A program made the translations under genes and the position numbers. A stretch of DNA of 42,467 bases from Zavarzinia marina (GTDB lineage: Bacteria; Pseudomonadota; Alphaproteobacteria; Zavarziniales; Zavarziniaceae), in NCBI RefSeq assembly GCF_021568905.1, contig NZ_JAKGSB010000011.1:1-42467 (forward strand). The letters are read 5' to 3'. Positions 13,384 through 19,957 of this stretch are shown here, piece by piece (position 1 is the first letter of the stretch; every line of letters begins with the position of its first letter). The notes under the pieces are model-generated. The model saw only the letters and a list, made by a program, of their open reading frames with translations. It was not told the origin of the DNA and did no database searches.

Positions 13384-14508
13384 CTAGTCGGTCCCGTCCA
13401 TGTCTTGAAGTGCAACGGTGGCGTCATCGCTGCCGGCGTCGATGGCACGACGGAACCACATTCTGGCTTGTTCACGGTCGGCGGGTACGGTTTTGCCATC
13501 CCGATAGACGATCCCCATGAATGTCATGGCCTCGGCGTCGCCGGCATCGGCCGCCTTGCGCATCCACTCGACGGCGGCGGTTTCGTTCTGTTCGACGCCA
13601 TAACCATTTTTCAGGGCGATCGCGTAGTTGAACATGCCGTAGCTGTTGCCGGCTTCGGCCGCCCGTAGCATCCAGCGGGTGGCGGCGATATCGTCCTTGG
13701 CGAGACCGGCACCTTCACGAAGCATGACGCCGAGTTTGACCATCGCGGGCACATAGAGGGCCTCCGCACTCTTCAGGTACCATTTCGCGGCCTCGACGTC
13801 GTCCTGGGTAATGCCTTCACCCTTCTGGAGACTGTAGGCATAGTTGTACATCGCTATCGGCAGGCCGGTATCGGCTGCCTTTCGGAACAAGGCAACAGCG
13901 GCGGCCTGGTCCTTCTCGGTGCCCCGGCCCTCGAACAGCAACTTGCCCAGGTTGTTCATGGCGTCCGGCTTGCCGGCGTCGGCGGCCTCGCGGTACCACG
14001 CGACGGCCGCGACTAGATCGGCTTCATGGCCTTCACCGGCTTCGAGCATCTGGCCCAGGGCATACATGGCGTCAACGATTCCGGCCGATGCTGCCCTGCG
14101 GTGCAATTCCAAGGCCTCGGCAGCATTCTTGGGGACGATATCTCCCGTCCGCAATTCGACGGCATAGCGATATTGGGCGGCGGGATAGCCGGCCTCGGCC
14201 GCGTTGCGCAGATGGCGAAGAACGTCGGGGTGGTGATCCTCCAGCGCGACGAATGCCCTCGCGAGCTGATACTCGAAGCGAGGTTCGTCGGGATATTCGG
14301 CCATGGCGTCGCGGCAGGCGGCGATGGCGTCCTTTGCCGGGATCCAGAAATAGCTGCGGCCGACGATCCCCATGGGACGTCCCGAATCTTCCGGGTCAGC
14401 GGCGAGCCGATCGCAATCCGTAATCGTCGTGGCCGATGCCGATGCCGAGCCGATCCAGACCATCGCGGCGAGACATGCTGCCGCGCATCGGGGCCACCAT
14501 TTCGCCAT
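13384..14508 (-). CDS. Exported Sel1-repeat protein (longer of two)
   Basis: The product (374 residues) has a Sec-type signal peptide (core CAAACLAAMVWIGSA, cleavage near SASA-TTI) and is probably periplasmic. Residues of about 35-110 form a domain shared with the next gene: ITDCDRLAADPED ... ACRDAMAEYPDEPRFEYQLARA, with two cysteines that could form a disulfide. From about residue 115 on, seven or so 36-residue Sel1 repeats follow, for example AAAVAWYREAADAGKPDAMNN. The ATG at 14508 was chosen because GGAG stands six bases upstream; the frame stays open further upstream. Sel1 proteins are usually scaffold or signalling adaptors; the partner is unknown. Confidence 0.82.
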   Translation of the reverse strand: MAKWWPRCAAACLAAMVWIGSASASATTITDCDRLAADPEDSGRPMGIVGRSYFWIPAKDAIAACRDAMAEYPDEPRFEYQLARAFVALEDHHPDVLRHLRNAAEAGYPAAQYRYAVELRTGDIVPKNAAEALELHRRAASAGIVDAMYALGQMLEAGEGHEADLVAAVAWYREAADAGKPDAMNNLGKLLFEGRGTEKDQAAAVALFRKAADTGLPIAMYNYAYSLQKGEGITQDDVEAAKWYLKSAEALYVPAMVKLGVMLREGAGLAKDDIAATRWMLRAAEAGNSYGMFNYAIALKNGYGVEQNETAAVEWMRKAADAGDAEAMTFMGIVYRDGKTVPADREQARMWFRRAIDAGSDDATVALQDMDGTD

Positions 14509-14594
14509 CACCATCTCCGCCCGCTCAGTGCTGGTGCATACGATACCATGTATGCGTGCACGGTGGGTGGGGCGAATGCGGCCAAGCGGTGCGG

Positions 14595-15293
14595 CTAATT
14601 CCCCCCGCCCATCTTTTCCGCCCGGTCGAGGGCCATGGCGGCTGTCTTGGAGCCGGCGTCGATGGCGCGGCGGTACCAGTCCTTGGCCTGGGCAATGTCC
14701 TTCGGCACGCCGGCGCCGTCGAGATAGGCGTGGCCCAGCATGGTCATGGATTCGGCATCGCCCGCCAGTGCGCCTTCGCGGAACCAGTCGGCCGCCGCGA
14801 CGGCATCGGCCTTCGTGCCCTCGCCGATGGTATAGGCCTTGCCGAGGGCCTGCATGGCCCTTGGATGGCCCGCTTCCGCCGCCTTCAGGAACAATTGGAA
14901 GGCCGCCGCGACGTCGCGGGGCACGCCGAAGCCGCTGCGCTTCATGACACCCAGGAAATACATGGCGTCCGGATAGCCGGCCTCCGCCGCTTCGGTCAGG
15001 AGCGTCGTCGATTCGGCGACCATCTGGTCGTTGCCCGGCGCCAGCGCCCGGGCGAGCTGATATTTGTAGCGCGCGATCTCGGGATTGGCCGCCATGGCCT
15101 CGCGGCAGGCGGGTACCGCCGCGCGGACGTCGATCGCGATGATGGCGACGCCCTTGACCGGTGCCGGCCGGTCGACGTCGGTCGGCGATGCCGCCAGCCG
15201 GTCGCACTCCGTGATCTCGGCCCATGCGCTCCCGGCCGAGAGCGTGCCCGAAACCGTCAGTGCCGCCGCCAGGATGCGTGCCCGCCGTGTCAT
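14595..15293 (-). CDS. Exported Sel1-repeat protein (shorter of two)
   Basis: This 232-residue paralogue of the neighbouring gene begins MTRRARILAAALTVSG and has a signal peptide cleaved near SAWA-EIT. The N-terminal module ITECDRLAASPTDVDRP ... ACREAMAANPEIARYKYQLARA aligns with the other protein. It has about four Sel1 repeats, such as AAADWFREGALAGDAESMTM. GGGAG six bases before the ATG at 15293 supports the start. The two genes are tandem on the minus strand 86 bases apart and probably arose by duplication followed by repeat gain or loss. Function is unknown. Confidence 0.8.
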   Translation of the reverse strand: MTRRARILAAALTVSGTLSAGSAWAEITECDRLAASPTDVDRPAPVKGVAIIAIDVRAAVPACREAMAANPEIARYKYQLARALAPGNDQMVAESTTLLTEAAEAGYPDAMYFLGVMKRSGFGVPRDVAAAFQLFLKAAEAGHPRAMQALGKAYTIGEGTKADAVAAADWFREGALAGDAESMTMLGHAYLDGAGVPKDIAQAKDWYRRAIDAGSKTAAMALDRAEKMGGGN

Positions 15294-15360
15294 CGTCGTC
15301 TCCCCCGTCGTCCAAACCGGGGGCATTCTGGCAAAGGCGGCGGCCCCTGTCTGCCCGCAG

Positions 15361-17973
15361 TCACCCCACCAGCGGCCTGAACGTGGTCTTGTCGGTGCCG
15401 CAGTCGGGGCAGCGCCAATCGGCGGGCAGGGCGGCGAAGGCGGTGCCCGGGGGGATGGCCTGGCCGGGCAGGCCCTGGGCTTCGTCGTAGATGAAATAGC
15501 AGCCCCGGCAGATGTGGCGCCGCGTGCCGCTGGGGCGCGGCGTCGCGGTGACCGTGGTGGCCGGCGCGGGCGCGATGTCGGGGATGGCGACGGTATCGTC
15601 GCGGCTGACGCGGCCCGATTTTCGCACCGTCAGATAGATGCCGAGATCCTTGTGGCCGAAGGCGGCGCGCAGGGAGCCGGGAATATCGAGGTCGCGGCGC
15701 CCGCTCGCCGGATTGACATTGGTCGCGCCGCAGCGCCCGTTGCGCCGCTCCACACGGCACAGGGTCTCGCCCAGGAGGATGTCGCTGCCGATCCAGTCGA
15801 ACTCCTGCCAGGGCTTGGCGCCATCGATATAGACATTGGCGCGAAAGCGCAGCGGATCGAGGGGGACGCCCCATTGCGCCTCGAGGCTGCGCAGGGTGGC
15901 GAGATTGATCAGCGAGATCACATTCTCGGGCTTGTCCATGAAATGGCCGCCCCGGCTGCGCACCAGGCGCGGCGTGCCGCGCAGCGTCGGCACCAGGCCG
16001 GCGAAGAAACGCTCCACCGCCGCGCGTCCGGCGGCGGTACCGATGTCGGCGCGGAGCAACTCGCCCTCGCCGTCGGACAGGGTCAGCACCTCGCTCCCGA
16101 CGTCCAGATGGCTCCGCACCTGGGCCAGGGCCTCGTCCAGCATCAGCATGACGAAGAGACCCTTCTTGGCCCATTTGGGGTCGTCCTCGTCCACCGGCAC
16201 GCCGGGGCGGGCCAGGGCGAAGAGACGGTCGAAGGGAAAGGGGCGGTCGGCCTCCAGCGTCACCGTCTCCACGGCCTGCGCGCTCAGGCCCTTGATCGGA
16301 TAGCGATAGAGTCCCTGGATGACGGGCATGATGGGGGCGTCCTCGAAGGATGGCGGGGCCTTGGACTTTGCCCGAACGGACACGGGCCGTCGTAGGGCCG
16401 GCTTCTGAAGATTTCGGGGAGCCGGACGGGCATTGCGCCCGGTCGCCGGTGCCGCCATGCGCGACGGCGCCGCGTCCACCATCAGCGCATCGAGGAAGTC
16501 GTGCCGGTGGTCCAGCGTATCGTCGATGATGTCGGACAGCCGCGCGATGCCCTGGTCGATCTGGCGCGGCGTCAGCGCCGCGTAACCGAGCACGATGGCG
16601 CGGCGGCTGAACACGCCGGGCCGTGCCTCGAAGGCGCCGCCCGCGGCGAGCGGATAGAGGCCGACGCGGGCGCGCCGGGCCAGGCCCTCCAGGGTCGCGG
16701 CATCGGGCACGCCGGGCGGCAGTTGCCAGAACAGATGCAGGCCCGCCTCGGTCCCGCCGACATCGGTCTCGCCGAAATGCCGGCGCAATGCCGCGAGCAG
16801 CGTGTCGCGCCGCTCCCGATACTGGGTGCGCAGGCGGGCGAGATGGGCGGCATGGCTGCCACCCTTGATGAATTCGGCCAGCGTTGCCTGTTCGGCCCAG
16901 GGATTGCCGTTGTTGGCCAGCGCCTTGGCCGCCCGCGCGGCTTCGACCAGGCGCGGCGGCACCACCATGTAGCCGAGCCGCAGCCCGGCCCCGAGGGATT
17001 TGGAGAACGTGCCGAGATGGATGGCGCAATCGGGCGCCAGGCCGGCCAGCGACGGCAGGGGCGAGCCCTCATAGCGAAAGTCGCCGTCGTAATCGTCCTC
17101 CAGGATGTAGCAGCCATGGGCGCGTGCCCAGGCGATCAGGGCGCCGCGGCGCGCGGCCGAAAGCGCGTGGCCGGTCGGATATTGGTGGGAGGGCGTGACA
17201 TAGACCAGGCCGGCGGGGCGGTCCGGCAGGGCGTCGGTCACCAGGCCTTCCGCGTCGACGGGGACGGAGGCCAGCGCCGCGCCCGAAGCCTGAAAGGCGA
17301 AGGCGGCGCCCTGATAGCACGGATCCTCCACGATCGCCGTGGTGCCGGGGCCGAGGAACAGGCGCGCGGCGATGCCGATACCTTCCTGGATGCCGGCGGT
17401 GATCACCACCTGGCCGGGATCGGCGCTGATGCCCCGGCTGGCGGCCAGATGCTCGGCGATCGCGGCGCGCAGCGCGAACAGGCCGCCCGGATCGCCATAT
17501 TGGGTCAGGCCCTGGGCCCCGCCATGGGCGAGGCGGTCCTGCAGCAGCCGGCGCCAGGTCTTCAGGGGGAAGAGCGCGGCATCGGGCCTGCCGGGAAAGA
17601 AATCGAAGCTGACGCGCCCGCCCGCCTGGGCGGTCAGGCGGGGCGCCTGGGGCAGCACGCGCGGCAGCGGCATGGCGGCGGCATCGGCCGCCATGGGCGC
17701 CGGGGGCGGGGGGCGCAGGTCTTCCGGCGGCGTCGCGGCGGCATAGATGCCGGACGCCACCCGCGCCTCGGCGTAACCTTCCAGGATCAGCAGGTCGTAG
17801 GCCCGGACGGCGGTATTGCGCGAGATCGCCAATTGTTCCGACAGGCGGCGCGACGAGGGCAGCCGCGCGCCGGGCGGAATGCGCCGGTGGCGGATCGCCG
17901 TGCGCAACTGTTCGGCCAATTGTTCGGTCAGGCTCTCGGGCCGGGACCGGTCCAGCAGAATGGGAAACTGCAT
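15361..17973 (-). CDS. Fused PdxR/MocR regulator - MOSC domain - rubredoxin
   Basis: One uninterrupted frame of 870 residues joins two proteins that are normally separate. Residues 1-75 are a GntR-type winged helix (RIPPGARLPSSRRLSEQLAI, SRNTAVRAYDLL). Residues of about 110-490 are a fold-type I aminotransferase-like domain with the PLP lysine at K325 (TFSKSLGAGLRLGY), making a PdxR/MocR regulator. A 55-residue linker rich in Pro/Arg/Ala follows. From M549 comes a MOSC N-terminal barrel (GLYRYPIKGLSAQ) and MOSC domain with its molybdenum-ligand cysteine in GRCGATNVNP (C748). The end is a rubredoxin with CRGC (C822, C825) and CPDC (C855, C858). MOSC plus iron protein resembles E. coli YcbX, which carries a [2Fe-2S] domain. 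GAGGA stands before M549, so the second part may also be translated alone. ATG 17973 is preferred over GTG 17979. Confidence 0.8.
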   Translation of the reverse strand: MQFPILLDRSRPESLTEQLAEQLRTAIRHRRIPPGARLPSSRRLSEQLAISRNTAVRAYDLLILEGYAEARVASGIYAAATPPEDLRPPPPAPMAADAAAMPLPRVLPQAPRLTAQAGGRVSFDFFPGRPDAALFPLKTWRRLLQDRLAHGGAQGLTQYGDPGGLFALRAAIAEHLAASRGISADPGQVVITAGIQEGIGIAARLFLGPGTTAIVEDPCYQGAAFAFQASGAALASVPVDAEGLVTDALPDRPAGLVYVTPSHQYPTGHALSAARRGALIAWARAHGCYILEDDYDGDFRYEGSPLPSLAGLAPDCAIHLGTFSKSLGAGLRLGYMVVPPRLVEAARAAKALANNGNPWAEQATLAEFIKGGSHAAHLARLRTQYRERRDTLLAALRRHFGETDVGGTEAGLHLFWQLPPGVPDAATLEGLARRARVGLYPLAAGGAFEARPGVFSRRAIVLGYAALTPRQIDQGIARLSDIIDDTLDHRHDFLDALMVDAAPSRMAAPATGRNARPAPRNLQKPALRRPVSVRAKSKAPPSFEDAPIMPVIQGLYRYPIKGLSAQAVETVTLEADRPFPFDRLFALARPGVPVDEDDPKWAKKGLFVMLMLDEALAQVRSHLDVGSEVLTLSDGEGELLRADIGTAAGRAAVERFFAGLVPTLRGTPRLVRSRGGHFMDKPENVISLINLATLRSLEAQWGVPLDPLRFRANVYIDGAKPWQEFDWIGSDILLGETLCRVERRNGRCGATNVNPASGRRDLDIPGSLRAAFGHKDLGIYLTVRKSGRVSRDDTVAIPDIAPAPATTVTATPRPSGTRRHICRGCYFIYDEAQGLPGQAIPPGTAFAALPADWRCPDCGTDKTTFRPLVG

Positions 17974-18356
17974 CGCCACCTTCTCCTCGCCGAAGGAGCC
18001 TAGCGCCGGCCGCGCGCCTTCGCATCGCGGAAGATGGGGCCAGATGACCTCAGGGCGCCGCCATGGTGCCAGTTGTCCGGCAATCGGCCCGAATCTGGCG
18101 CTGCCCGCCTCGCATCGACTGGCACCATGCCCTGAGCGGAAGAGGGTGAAGCGCCCTGTTTTTCACCATTGATGGCCTTGAGCGTCTCGGATCGCCTGAA
18201 AAATCGGCATTTCGCTACGGCCGGGCGGGCGGTGGGGGACGGCGGCTGGCGCCTTTCGAATTTCGGGCGATGGCTCTCGGGCCCTGGCGGTCGCGGTGGT
18301 CAGTCTGTCTGCGTCGCGCGACATGGCGTCGCCGCCGCATCCGATAGGAGACCAGG
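17974..18356. promoter_or_regulatory. 383-bp divergent regulatory region (PdxR fusion / UrtA-like gene)
   Basis: No gene is supported here. The region contains a long interrupted inverted repeat at 18049-18136 (separate entry), a smaller one with GGTGAA and TTCACC near 18145-18167, and the ribosome site AGGAG before the UrtA-like gene. Clear sigma-70 boxes were not found. Confidence 0.6.
18049..18136. promoter_or_regulatory. Putative operator: interrupted inverted repeat
   Basis: CTCAGGGC (18049-18056) and ATGGTGCCAGT (18063-18073) recur as the inverted complement ACTGGCACCAT (18118-18128) and GCCCTGAG (18129-18136). The 11-bp halves are centred 55 bp apart, about five helical turns. This suits a two-site dimeric regulator such as the adjacent MocR-type protein (inference). 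Confidence 0.5.
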
Positions 18357-19583
18357 ATGAAACTGACCCGCCGCCGCCTGGGGGCCGCTGCCGCCGGCCT
18401 CTTGCTCGCCCTCAACCTGCCCGTGGCCGCAAGGGCCGCCGAGCCGATCAAGATCGGCATCCTCCATTCGCTTTCCGGCACCATGGCCATCAGCGAGACG
18501 GTCCTGAAGGATCTGATGCTGATGATGGTGAAGGAGCAGAACGAGAAGGGCGGCGTCCTCGGCCGGCCGATCGAGGCGGTGGTGGTCGATCCCGCCTCCG
18601 ACTGGCCGCTGTTCGCCGAAAAGGCCCGCGACCTGCTGGCACGGGAGAAGGTCGCGGCCGTCTTCGGCTGCTGGACCTCGGTGTCGCGGAAATCCGTGCT
18701 GCCGGTGTTCGAGGAATTGGACGGCCTGCTGTTCTACCCCCTCGAATACGAGGGCGAGGAAAGCTCGAAGAACATCTTCTACGGCTCATCCGTGCCCGAC
18801 AACAAGGCGATCCCGGCCATCGAATATCTGATGAGCGAGGACGGCGGCGGCATCCGCCGCTTCGTGCTGGAAGGCACGGACTACGTCTACCCGCGCACCA
18901 GCAACAAGATCATCCGCGCCTTCCTCGAACAGAAGGGCATTCCGGCGGAAGACATCCGCGAGAACTACACCCCCTTCGGCTTCGCCGACTGGCAGACCGA
19001 GGTCGCCGCCATCAAGGCTTTCGGTTCCACAGGCATTCCCACGGCCGTGATTTCCACCGTCAACGGCGACGCCAACGTGCCCTTCTACAAGGAGCTGGGC
19101 AATCAGGGCATCAAGGCGACGGACATCCCCGTGATCGCCTTCTCGGTCGGGGAGGAGGAGTTGAAGGGCCTCGACACCGGGCTGCTGGTCGGCCATCTCG
19201 CGGCCTGGAGCTATTTCCAGTCGGTCGACACGCCCGAGAACAAGGCGTTCATCGAGAAGTGGCGCGCCTATATCGGCAATCCCAAGGCGGTGACCAACGA
19301 TCCCATGGAATCCGCCTATAACCTGTTCCGTCTCTGGGTGAAGGCGGTGGAGAAGGCGGGCACGACCGACGTCGACGCGGTCTCGGCGGCGATCGTCGGG
19401 GAAAGCGTGATTTCCCCGACCGGCTACGAGGTGGTAATGAACGCCAATCATCACGTCACCAAGCCGGTGATGATCGGCGAGGTCCAGGACGACGGCCAGT
19501 TCGAGATCGTCTATCAGAGCAAGCCGGTCGCGCCCAAGCCCTGGAGCCCCTATCTGCCCGCCAACGCCGGCCGCAACGATTGA
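18357..19583 (+). CDS. UrtA/AmiC-like ABC transporter substrate-binding protein
   Basis: This 408-residue protein belongs to the branched-chain amino acid/amide periplasmic binding family (Peripla_BP_5) and resembles urea- and short-amide-binding UrtA/FmdD. It has a leader with TRRRLGAAAAGLLLAL that could use the Tat route, with cleavage after AARA. Typical segments are IGILHSLSGTMAISE, VFGCWTSVSRKSVLPVFE, LFYPLEYEGEESS, and FVLEGTDYVYPR. Unlike normal urt loci, no permease or ATPase genes (urtBCDE) follow; the next gene is a ferredoxin. The protein may serve a transporter encoded elsewhere or act as a sensor. AGGAG precedes the ATG. Confidence 0.85.
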   Translation: MKLTRRRLGAAAAGLLLALNLPVAARAAEPIKIGILHSLSGTMAISETVLKDLMLMMVKEQNEKGGVLGRPIEAVVVDPASDWPLFAEKARDLLAREKVAAVFGCWTSVSRKSVLPVFEELDGLLFYPLEYEGEESSKNIFYGSSVPDNKAIPAIEYLMSEDGGGIRRFVLEGTDYVYPRTSNKIIRAFLEQKGIPAEDIRENYTPFGFADWQTEVAAIKAFGSTGIPTAVISTVNGDANVPFYKELGNQGIKATDIPVIAFSVGEEELKGLDTGLLVGHLAAWSYFQSVDTPENKAFIEKWRAYIGNPKAVTNDPMESAYNLFRLWVKAVEKAGTTDVDAVSAAIVGESVISPTGYEVVMNANHHVTKPVMIGEVQDDGQFEIVYQSKPVAPKPWSPYLPANAGRND

Positions 19584-19639
19584 GGGTCCCGGTCGCGCCC
19601 CACCCCTCGCGATGGGGTGCTTCCCGGCGAGGTCGGACC

Positions 19640-19957
19640 ATGGTGAAGATCACATTCGTTGCCGCGGACGGCCGCCTCATGGTGGTCGACGCGATGGTCG
19701 GGGCCAGCGTCATGATGGCGGCGCTGACCGGGGGCGTCGACGATCTGCCGGCGGAATGCGGCGGTGCCCTCGCCTGCGGAACCTGCCACGTCCATGTCGG
19801 AACGCCGCCCGAAGGCCTGCTGCCGCCGTCGGCGATGGAGGAGGCGATGCTGTCCAGCCTCGACGCGCGCCGCCCCGACAGCCGGCTGAGCTGCCAGCTG
19901 ACGGTCACGGCGGCGTTCGACGGCCTCGTCCTGCATCTGCCGCCCACGGACGGCTAG
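19640..19957 (+). CDS. [2Fe-2S] ferredoxin, adrenodoxin type
   Basis: The 105-residue protein is a small electron carrier. The cluster ligands are C40, C46, C49 (ECGGALACGTCH) and C85 (LSCQL), the adrenodoxin/putidaredoxin spacing. The N-terminus MVKITFVAADGRLMVVDA has the usual beta-strand start. It lies 56 bases downstream of the UrtA-like gene on the same strand and converges with the unknown gene at 19964. The redox partner is not visible; candidates would be a cytochrome P450 or Rieske oxygenase elsewhere. The start was chosen by homology length; the frame is open 20 codons further upstream but that part is Pro/Arg-rich. Confidence 0.9.
   Translation: MVKITFVAADGRLMVVDAMVGASVMMAALTGGVDDLPAECGGALACGTCHVHVGTPPEGLLPPSAMEEAMLSSLDARRPDSRLSCQLTVTAAFDGLVLHLPPTDG

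Follow-up and report, generated by a model that had tools for sequence, protein, structure and literature searches.

The question raised by the 42,467-nucleotide contig NZ_JAKGSB010000011.1 of Zavarzinia marina (assembly GCF_021568905.1; this whole stretch is referred to as the window) is whether a transcription regulator and a probable redox enzyme that share a reading frame are truly one gene, and what such a gene might do. The original prediction had described a PdxR/MocR-type regulator that runs without a stop codon into a MOSC-rubredoxin protein, and had offered two options: a real sensor-enzyme fusion, or two genes whose spacer had lost its stop. The frame is indeed continuous. It starts with an ATG at position 17973 and runs for 870 residues to position 15361 on the minus strand, a strand that the prediction had not given. 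(A longer version starting from a GTG makes an 872-residue open reading frame (ORF), 15361–17979, also on the minus strand; the plus strand is interrupted by a stop in that frame.) From the N- to the C-terminus, Pfam recognizes a GntR domain and an aminotransferase-like domain of the PdxR/MocR type, followed after a linker by MOSC and rubredoxin (Table 1). The first half matched the NCBIfam PdxR model NF052282 with 414.9 bits (cut-off 320), and the MOSC and rubredoxin domains scored 45.6 bits (cut-off 22.7) and 63.9 bits (cut-off 23), respectively. The pyridoxal 5'-phosphate (PLP) lysine K325, the MOSC cysteine C748 and the four rubredoxin cysteines (822, 825, 855 and 858) were all found where they had been predicted.

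Conservation of the fused gene

The MOSC-rubredoxin half was used to scan a species-genome collection by a pattern-based method, whose reach is limited to close relatives, and 24 loci were returned. Fourteen of these had the regulator upstream, in the same frame and with a stop-free joint; six had no regulator match (L024, L026, L029, L031, the frame-shifted L035, and L032, which ends with its contig), and four were MOSC proteins without rubredoxin (L033, L034, L036 and L037). Fused relatives were also present in 7 of 242 genomes of the L030 genus, titled Bradyrhizobium, in 6 of 397 of the L030 order, in 3 of 75 of the L021 family (titled Reyranella) and in 2 of 111 of the L028 genus (titled Methylobacterium). 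After removal of duplicates, 25 loci including the window remained, plus one broken copy. The joint was open and in frame in all 26 loci that carry a regulator upstream of MOSC-rubredoxin, the broken copy included. Adjacent but separate halves, the arrangement that would have spoken for two genes, occurred at none of these loci. Five of the 26 lie on contigs of 3.1–9.2 Mb, and an assembly error is therefore not the cause of the fusion. Because the same joint recurs in other bacteria beside the same solute-binding gene, the fusion is inherited and not a sequencing error; on the sequences compared, it is as good as certain that it is true and inherited, in scattered soil and water bacteria.

The broken copy, L105 (with a shorter cut, L090; G821:C78), came from the Reyranella family search and keeps the regulator, the joint and the binding protein, with part of MOSC missing. 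It was counted for the joint, the junction ATG and the divergent gene, and excluded from the linker, start-signal and PLP counts.

Among 385 genomes of the class, 73 had a MOSC match at an E-value of 1e-40, only two of which matched across all 322 residues, and both were fused. No regulator match accompanied the weaker MOSC matches in the four examined of the other 71 genomes (L055, L058, L059 and L065), nor the long-frame MOSC match L125 in the L027 genome. The nearest non-fused regulators in the 385 genomes were 40–45% identical. The five other genomes of the window's own genus had no full-length relative, so no comparison within the genus was possible. At an E-value of 1e-50, 133 plasmid records matched, and none contained a region that spans 80% of the fused protein.

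The linker varied from 51 to 80 residues, with 11 different lengths, all in frame (25 rows measured). In an alignment of 24 rows, from which L023 was excluded, A526 and L527 were invariant and P525 and R534 nearly so, the rest being variable. Among 11 pairs of relatives compared, the five close pairs with no common member (L016/L021, L027/L028, L097/L098, L103/L104 and L018/L095) had totals of 33, 32 and 75 substitutions at the first, second and third codon positions; the more distant pair of the window and L014 showed no third-position excess (25, 24 and 27). By these sequence patterns, the linker is translated. In a full-length structure model its predicted local distance difference test score (pLDDT) was below 50 (mean for the whole chain 70, predicted template modelling score 0.47), and this model was used for no domain arrangement and no fold search.

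The two halves and the codon at their junction

The enzyme half was modelled separately (mean pLDDT 81). Its best match in the PDB was human mARC1 (E-value 9e-11, 12% identity, TM-score 0.53–0.59 depending on the query length), followed by YuaD and YiiM, and the tail of the model matched rubredoxins. C748 and the four rubredoxin cysteines were invariant (12 and 19 aligned rows), and Cys273 of mARC1 is the residue with which C748 is compared (PMC10637980). The genome encodes MoaA, consistent with use of the molybdenum cofactor (Moco). Two further MOSC proteins above the Pfam cut-off are encoded in the genome (G000:C10:155662-155973 and G000:C12:42071-42394), and the fused MOSC is thus not its sole candidate N-reductase.

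The sensor half is less uniform. The PLP lysine is K in 13 of 23 members and R, Q, A or S in the other 10; on the tree this takes at least five changes. These counts are for 23 rows: L023 has no aminotransferase domain, L022 has a frame break within it (its lysine is K), and L027, which is ended by its contig before residue 64, is included. With the lysine lost in 10 of 23 members, PLP binding by this lysine is dispensable in part of the family, whereas the enzyme residues are kept. A sensor-enzyme fusion, as originally proposed, is still a reasonable reading, but the lysine highlighted in support of it is missing from those 10 members. In L097–L100, four genomes from the search of the L030 genus, three elements are degraded, namely the PLP lysine, the Asp-Tyr motif beside it and the Shine-Dalgarno (SD)-like site, and the conserved residues of MOSC-rubredoxin are retained.

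Between the halves stands an ATG (Met549) that was present in all 26 loci; among the ten residues that precede it, none is shared by more than 13 of 24 rows. (In L030 the ATG was placed by hand over a one-residue alignment gap.) As predicted, a GAGGA precedes it in the window, at 16344–16340, ten bases ahead of the ATG at 16329. When pairing with the anti-SD sequence was averaged over 25 loci, the junction ATG ranked best of 46 linker positions, and it ranked fourth of 46 for weakness of the predicted mRNA structure. The start of the regulator itself, used as an imperfect positive control, scored no better; three of these control starts (L019, L103 and L104) were extrapolated and are not start codons.

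MOSC-rubredoxin relatives also occur without a regulator alongside (L024, L026 and L029). In the MOSC tree, L026 and L029 fall inside the fused clade, L024 is not placed and L031 lies outside. Since 12 of the 29 inner branches are open, some branches are long and L029 has an odd letter make-up, the use of the tree was restricted to two nestings, that of L029 with L102 (98/97) and that of L026 within the fused clade (100/98). From these positions, L026 and L029 are probably losses of the regulator. The comparison of L026 with L020 shows the extent of one such difference: the flanks are colinear with 82–87% DNA identity, and approximately 5.4 kb of L020, comprising a reductase, the binding protein, the boxes described below and the regulator, correspond to approximately 130 unrelated bases in L026. 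The homology restarts at the junction ATG with MOSC-rubredoxin intact, the exact edge being uncertain in the fast-changing linker. L026 has an ATG at the junction position, and L029 has a GTG preceded by GGAG there. Probably, then, judging from sequence signals, the fused gene keeps an internal start for free MOSC-rubredoxin besides encoding the full-length protein. The GAGGA-ATG had been cited as a sign of two separate genes; it did not hold up in that role, but it is a conserved start-like site, and the gene may for this reason yield both the fusion and the free enzyme.

The divergent binding-protein gene and the intergenic boxes

A UrtA-like gene is divergent from the fusion in all 24 loci with upstream sequence, across a gap that measures 383 bases in the window and 321–523 bases over all of them, and these neighbours are 60–82% identical to the binding protein in the window. 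Nine residues line the urea pocket of Prochlorococcus UrtA, in which Gln144 bonds both urea nitrogens (PMC10392092). Seven of the nine were identical in all 23 binding proteins. Of the remaining two, Phe192 was replaced by Tyr in all 23, likewise the residue in seven UrtA controls (six hand-picked from plasmid matches in 680 records, and the genome's own second UrtA), and Gln144 was replaced by Glu in 23 of 23, versus Gln in all seven controls. The change from Gln to Glu would suit a ligand with more positive charge or more hydrogen-bond donors than urea has. No urtB was found beside the binding-protein gene in the flanks, some of which are short, apart from one distant partial match in L018; the genome's second urtA does adjoin urtB.

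The region between the two genes contains repeated boxes resembling AACTGGACCCAT. Across 50 dinucleotide shuffles AACTGG was present in 3.2 regions on average and never in more than 7, compared with all 24 of the 24 actual intergenic regions. Boxes with 9 of 12 matches to AACTGGACCCAT numbered 76, compared with 2.1 (at most 5) in the shuffles; the consensus was derived from the same homologous regions in which it was counted. A spacing of exactly 24 bases between direct boxes was seen in 13 of 24 loci, and both strands carry boxes in 20 of 24. The commonest layout described for MocR regulons consists of two direct boxes and one inverted box (32% of regulons), TauR recognizes CTGGACYTAA, and it is common for MocR proteins to repress their own genes and to control divergent ones (PMC5320631, in the part covered). 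The candidate boxes are, as sequences, laid out much like these operators.

Behind the binding-protein gene, and overlapping its end, the window encodes a [2Fe-2S] ferredoxin, a candidate redox partner. A [2Fe-2S] ferredoxin gene also follows in L101 (9283–9651), and in L020 a reductase with Fer2 and NAD-binding domains (1528–2562). A conserved redox operon was considered at this position and dropped from the proposed system, as it would be represented by these three loci only. Among ten neighbours scanned in the window there was no family of PLP or Moco synthesis (the other loci are mostly unannotated). Rfam at its gathering thresholds gave no match over the whole window, and no known riboswitch thus supports the guess at the ligand. 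On the other side of the fused gene, two Sel1-repeat genes (13387–15326, minus strand) lie downstream on the same strand, the first of them beginning 34 bases past the stop.

Table 1. Coordinates of the fused gene, its parts and the neighbouring features in the window.
Feature	Position	Strand	Basis or remark
Fused coding sequence, PdxR/MocR-type regulator-linker-MOSC-rubredoxin, 870 residues	15361–17973	-	ORF, Pfam, NCBIfam, joint open 26/26
GntR winged-helix DNA-binding domain, residues 15–77	17743–17931	-	Pfam PF00392
Aminotransferase-like sensor domain (Aminotran_1_2), residues 136–420	16714–17568	-	Pfam PF00155; NCBIfam PdxR
PLP lysine K325	16999–17001	-	Present in window protein; replaced in 10/23 members
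Inter-domain linker, residues 490–548, variable length, translated	16330–16506	-	Low model confidence
Pro-Ala-Leu linker motif, residues 525–527	16393–16401	-	P 21/24, A 24/24, L 24/24
SD-like GAGGA before junction ATG	16340–16344	-	Sequence and position signal
Junction ATG (Met549); probable internal start of free MOSC-rubredoxin, 322 residues	16327–16329	-	Kept 26/26
MOSC domain, residues 679–795	15589–15939	-	Pfam; fold match mARC1, YuaD, YiiM
Putative molybdenum-ligand cysteine C748	15730–15732	-	Invariant; role by analogy with mARC1 Cys273
C-terminal rubredoxin domain, residues 820–865	15379–15516	-	Pfam PF00301; four invariant Cys
Candidate operator box ATCTGGCCCCAT	18034–18045	-	
Candidate operator box AACTGGCACCAT	18063–18074	-	
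Candidate operator box GACTGGCACCAT	18117–18128	+	
Divergent UrtA-like substrate-binding protein	18357–19583	+	TIGR03407 above cut-off; signal-peptide-like N-terminus (by eye)
Gln-to-Glu change in urea pocket, E130	18744–18746 (codon)	+	
[2Fe-2S] ferredoxin overlapping end of binding-protein gene, candidate redox partner	19580–19957	+	PF00111

A proposed self-regulating reductase, its rivals and known systems

The mechanism that we consider best, with a probability of roughly 0.55, is a self-regulating fusion with an internal start. The MocR/PdxR half would bind the AACTGGACCCAT-type boxes between the divergent genes and control its own gene plus that of the UrtA-like binding protein; the direction of this control and the inducer are parts of the proposal that we infer. 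The MOSC-rubredoxin half would be a Moco-dependent reductase of the mARC/YcbX kind, in which rubredoxin, in place of a [2Fe-2S] domain, would supply electrons to the molybdenum centre. Most likely it would reduce the N-OH group on a small amide, amidine or guanidine; the binding protein may capture this substrate or a related compound in the periplasm. With regulator and enzyme in one chain, transcription could be coupled to turnover, as PutA couples it for proline. The conserved internal start would let the same mRNA also give free MOSC-rubredoxin, by which the enzyme could exceed the regulator.

Several observations weigh against this proposal. The fusion occurs rarely (2 of the 385 genomes from the class), and its loci are related, so that the counts overstate independence. 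PLP-aldimine sensing cannot be universal in a family in which 10 of 23 members lack the lysine. The MOSC_N domain (PF03476) reached 19.8 bits, under the Pfam cut-off of 25, and the likeness to YcbX suggested earlier stands for the fold, and only in kind. The pocket site varies outside UrtA, as it is Phe in the genome's third, more distant UrtA-like paralogue and Pro in AmiC, and the argument for the ligand is a chemical one. Redox genes behind the binding-protein gene were seen in the three loci named above and no others, several flanks being short. In the window itself there are three boxes, with a same-strand pair 29 apart and no pair at 24 bases. The low mRNA structure runs on into the MOSC codons and is not special to the ATG.

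The loss of a stop by recent mutation or sequencing error in this genome can be rejected with near certainty, given 26 of 26 open joints among homologues. What had suggested it was the GAGGA-ATG at the junction and the linker codons, whose oddness is real and mild: G+C content at third positions is 0.78, versus 0.88 in both flanking domains of the window gene. A recent loss would not account for the 11 linker lengths, the conserved Pro-Ala-Leu motif, the third-position excess in most close pairs (the window and L014 apart) or the distance to the nearest non-fused regulators. Of the two original options, it is accordingly the fusion that stood. A true fusion that makes only the full-length protein is possible, if the less likely choice. 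The MOSC fold starts directly after the junction Met, which might be kept for structural reasons; L018, L021, L097–L100 and L101 have a weak SD-like signal, though none is better placed there, and codons +16 and +18 within MOSC give an equally strong average, two further points against an internal start. Against a purely structural role stand the peak of the signal at the junction codon among the linker positions and the start codons that the stand-alone L026 and L029 have at the same place.

It is doubtful that MOSC-rubredoxin serves the regulator as a redox or molybdenum sensor and is not an enzyme. Its physical joining to a DNA-binding protein would suit such a role, and the members without the PLP lysine may need another input; however, the metal-binding residues are invariant in 19 aligned rows, and the stand-alone versions L024, L026 and L029 have them with no regulator alongside. 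Quite improbable is a role in vitamin B6, Moco or urea homeostasis under PdxR-like control in place of an N-hydroxy substrate. The PdxR and UrtA models are both matched above their cut-offs, but the divergent neighbour is UrtA-like throughout, the ten neighbours scanned include no PLP or Moco synthesis family, and the binding protein has no urtB alongside in the flanks examined and a changed urea-bonding residue. A more speculative extension of the self-regulating fusion, which we offer tentatively, is that each gene gives two proteins, free MOSC-rubredoxin being made from a conserved internal ribosome-binding site, and that several lineages without the PLP lysine read the state of the attached molybdenum/rubredoxin enzyme, in place of a PLP adduct, as the operator signal. 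This signal might be the redox, cofactor-loading or substrate state, and the operator would be that of a binding protein for ligands of the guanidine or amidine type.

In our view, little is known of what bacterial MOSC reductases act on in nature. Here the MOSC enzyme is joined to its regulator and stands beside one binding protein whose urea pocket is altered, an arrangement that points to a class of ligands, to a promoter and to a gene that may act with it. The system would also supply a MocR regulator that has a redox enzyme built in, a case in which rubredoxin serves a molybdenum enzyme of the same chain, and a series of naturally occurring MocR domains without the PLP lysine. Judged from titles and the beginnings of abstracts, no description of a MocR-MOSC-rubredoxin architecture was found in the literature searched. 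In the covered part of the mARC review, ferredoxin, flavin, NifS, MoaB and XdhC domains are given as fusion partners of MOSC, and the review nowhere uses the word rubredoxin (PMC10637980); the portion covered of PMC6147048 names no MOSC-regulator fusion.

The fusion resembles several known systems in part. Like the MocR/PdxR-GabR-TauR regulators of the GntR family, it combines a GntR winged helix with a fold-type-I aminotransferase-like domain, has a divergent neighbour and candidate boxes with a CTGGAC core in direct and inverted orientation, and, in the window protein, keeps the Schiff-base lysine. Those regulators end after the aminotransferase domain, whereas the window protein is extended by the linker, MOSC and rubredoxin. 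The lysine lost from part of the fusion family is Lys312 in the published MocR classification, where, in the part covered, it is conserved in all clusters (PMC6677901). The fusion differs from PdxR proper in having an UrtA-like divergent neighbour and no PLP-synthesis gene among the neighbours scanned. The MOSC fold, with mARC1 as the top match, and the invariant cysteine are shared with mARC-type enzymes, which reduce amidoximes, N-hydroxyguanidines and hydroxamates, and with YcbX, which also has an electron carrier fused to MOSC (PMC10637980). In YcbX, however, this carrier is a C-terminal [2Fe-2S] ferredoxin domain, which rubredoxin replaces in the fusion; the fusion's MOSC_N is weakly recognized, and an N-terminal transcription regulator is added. 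The divergent protein is alike to UrtA/AmiC in its NCBIfam match and most of its urea-pocket residues, and unlike UrtA in its Glu at position 144 and in that no urtB was found beside its gene in the flanks examined, the genome having a separate urtA with urtB. PutA is the closest parallel in organization, since it joins a DNA-binding domain and a redox enzyme in a single chain divergent from a transport gene. The domains of the fusion are unrelated to those of PutA, a binding protein takes the place of the permease, and the fusion has a conserved start-like site inside.

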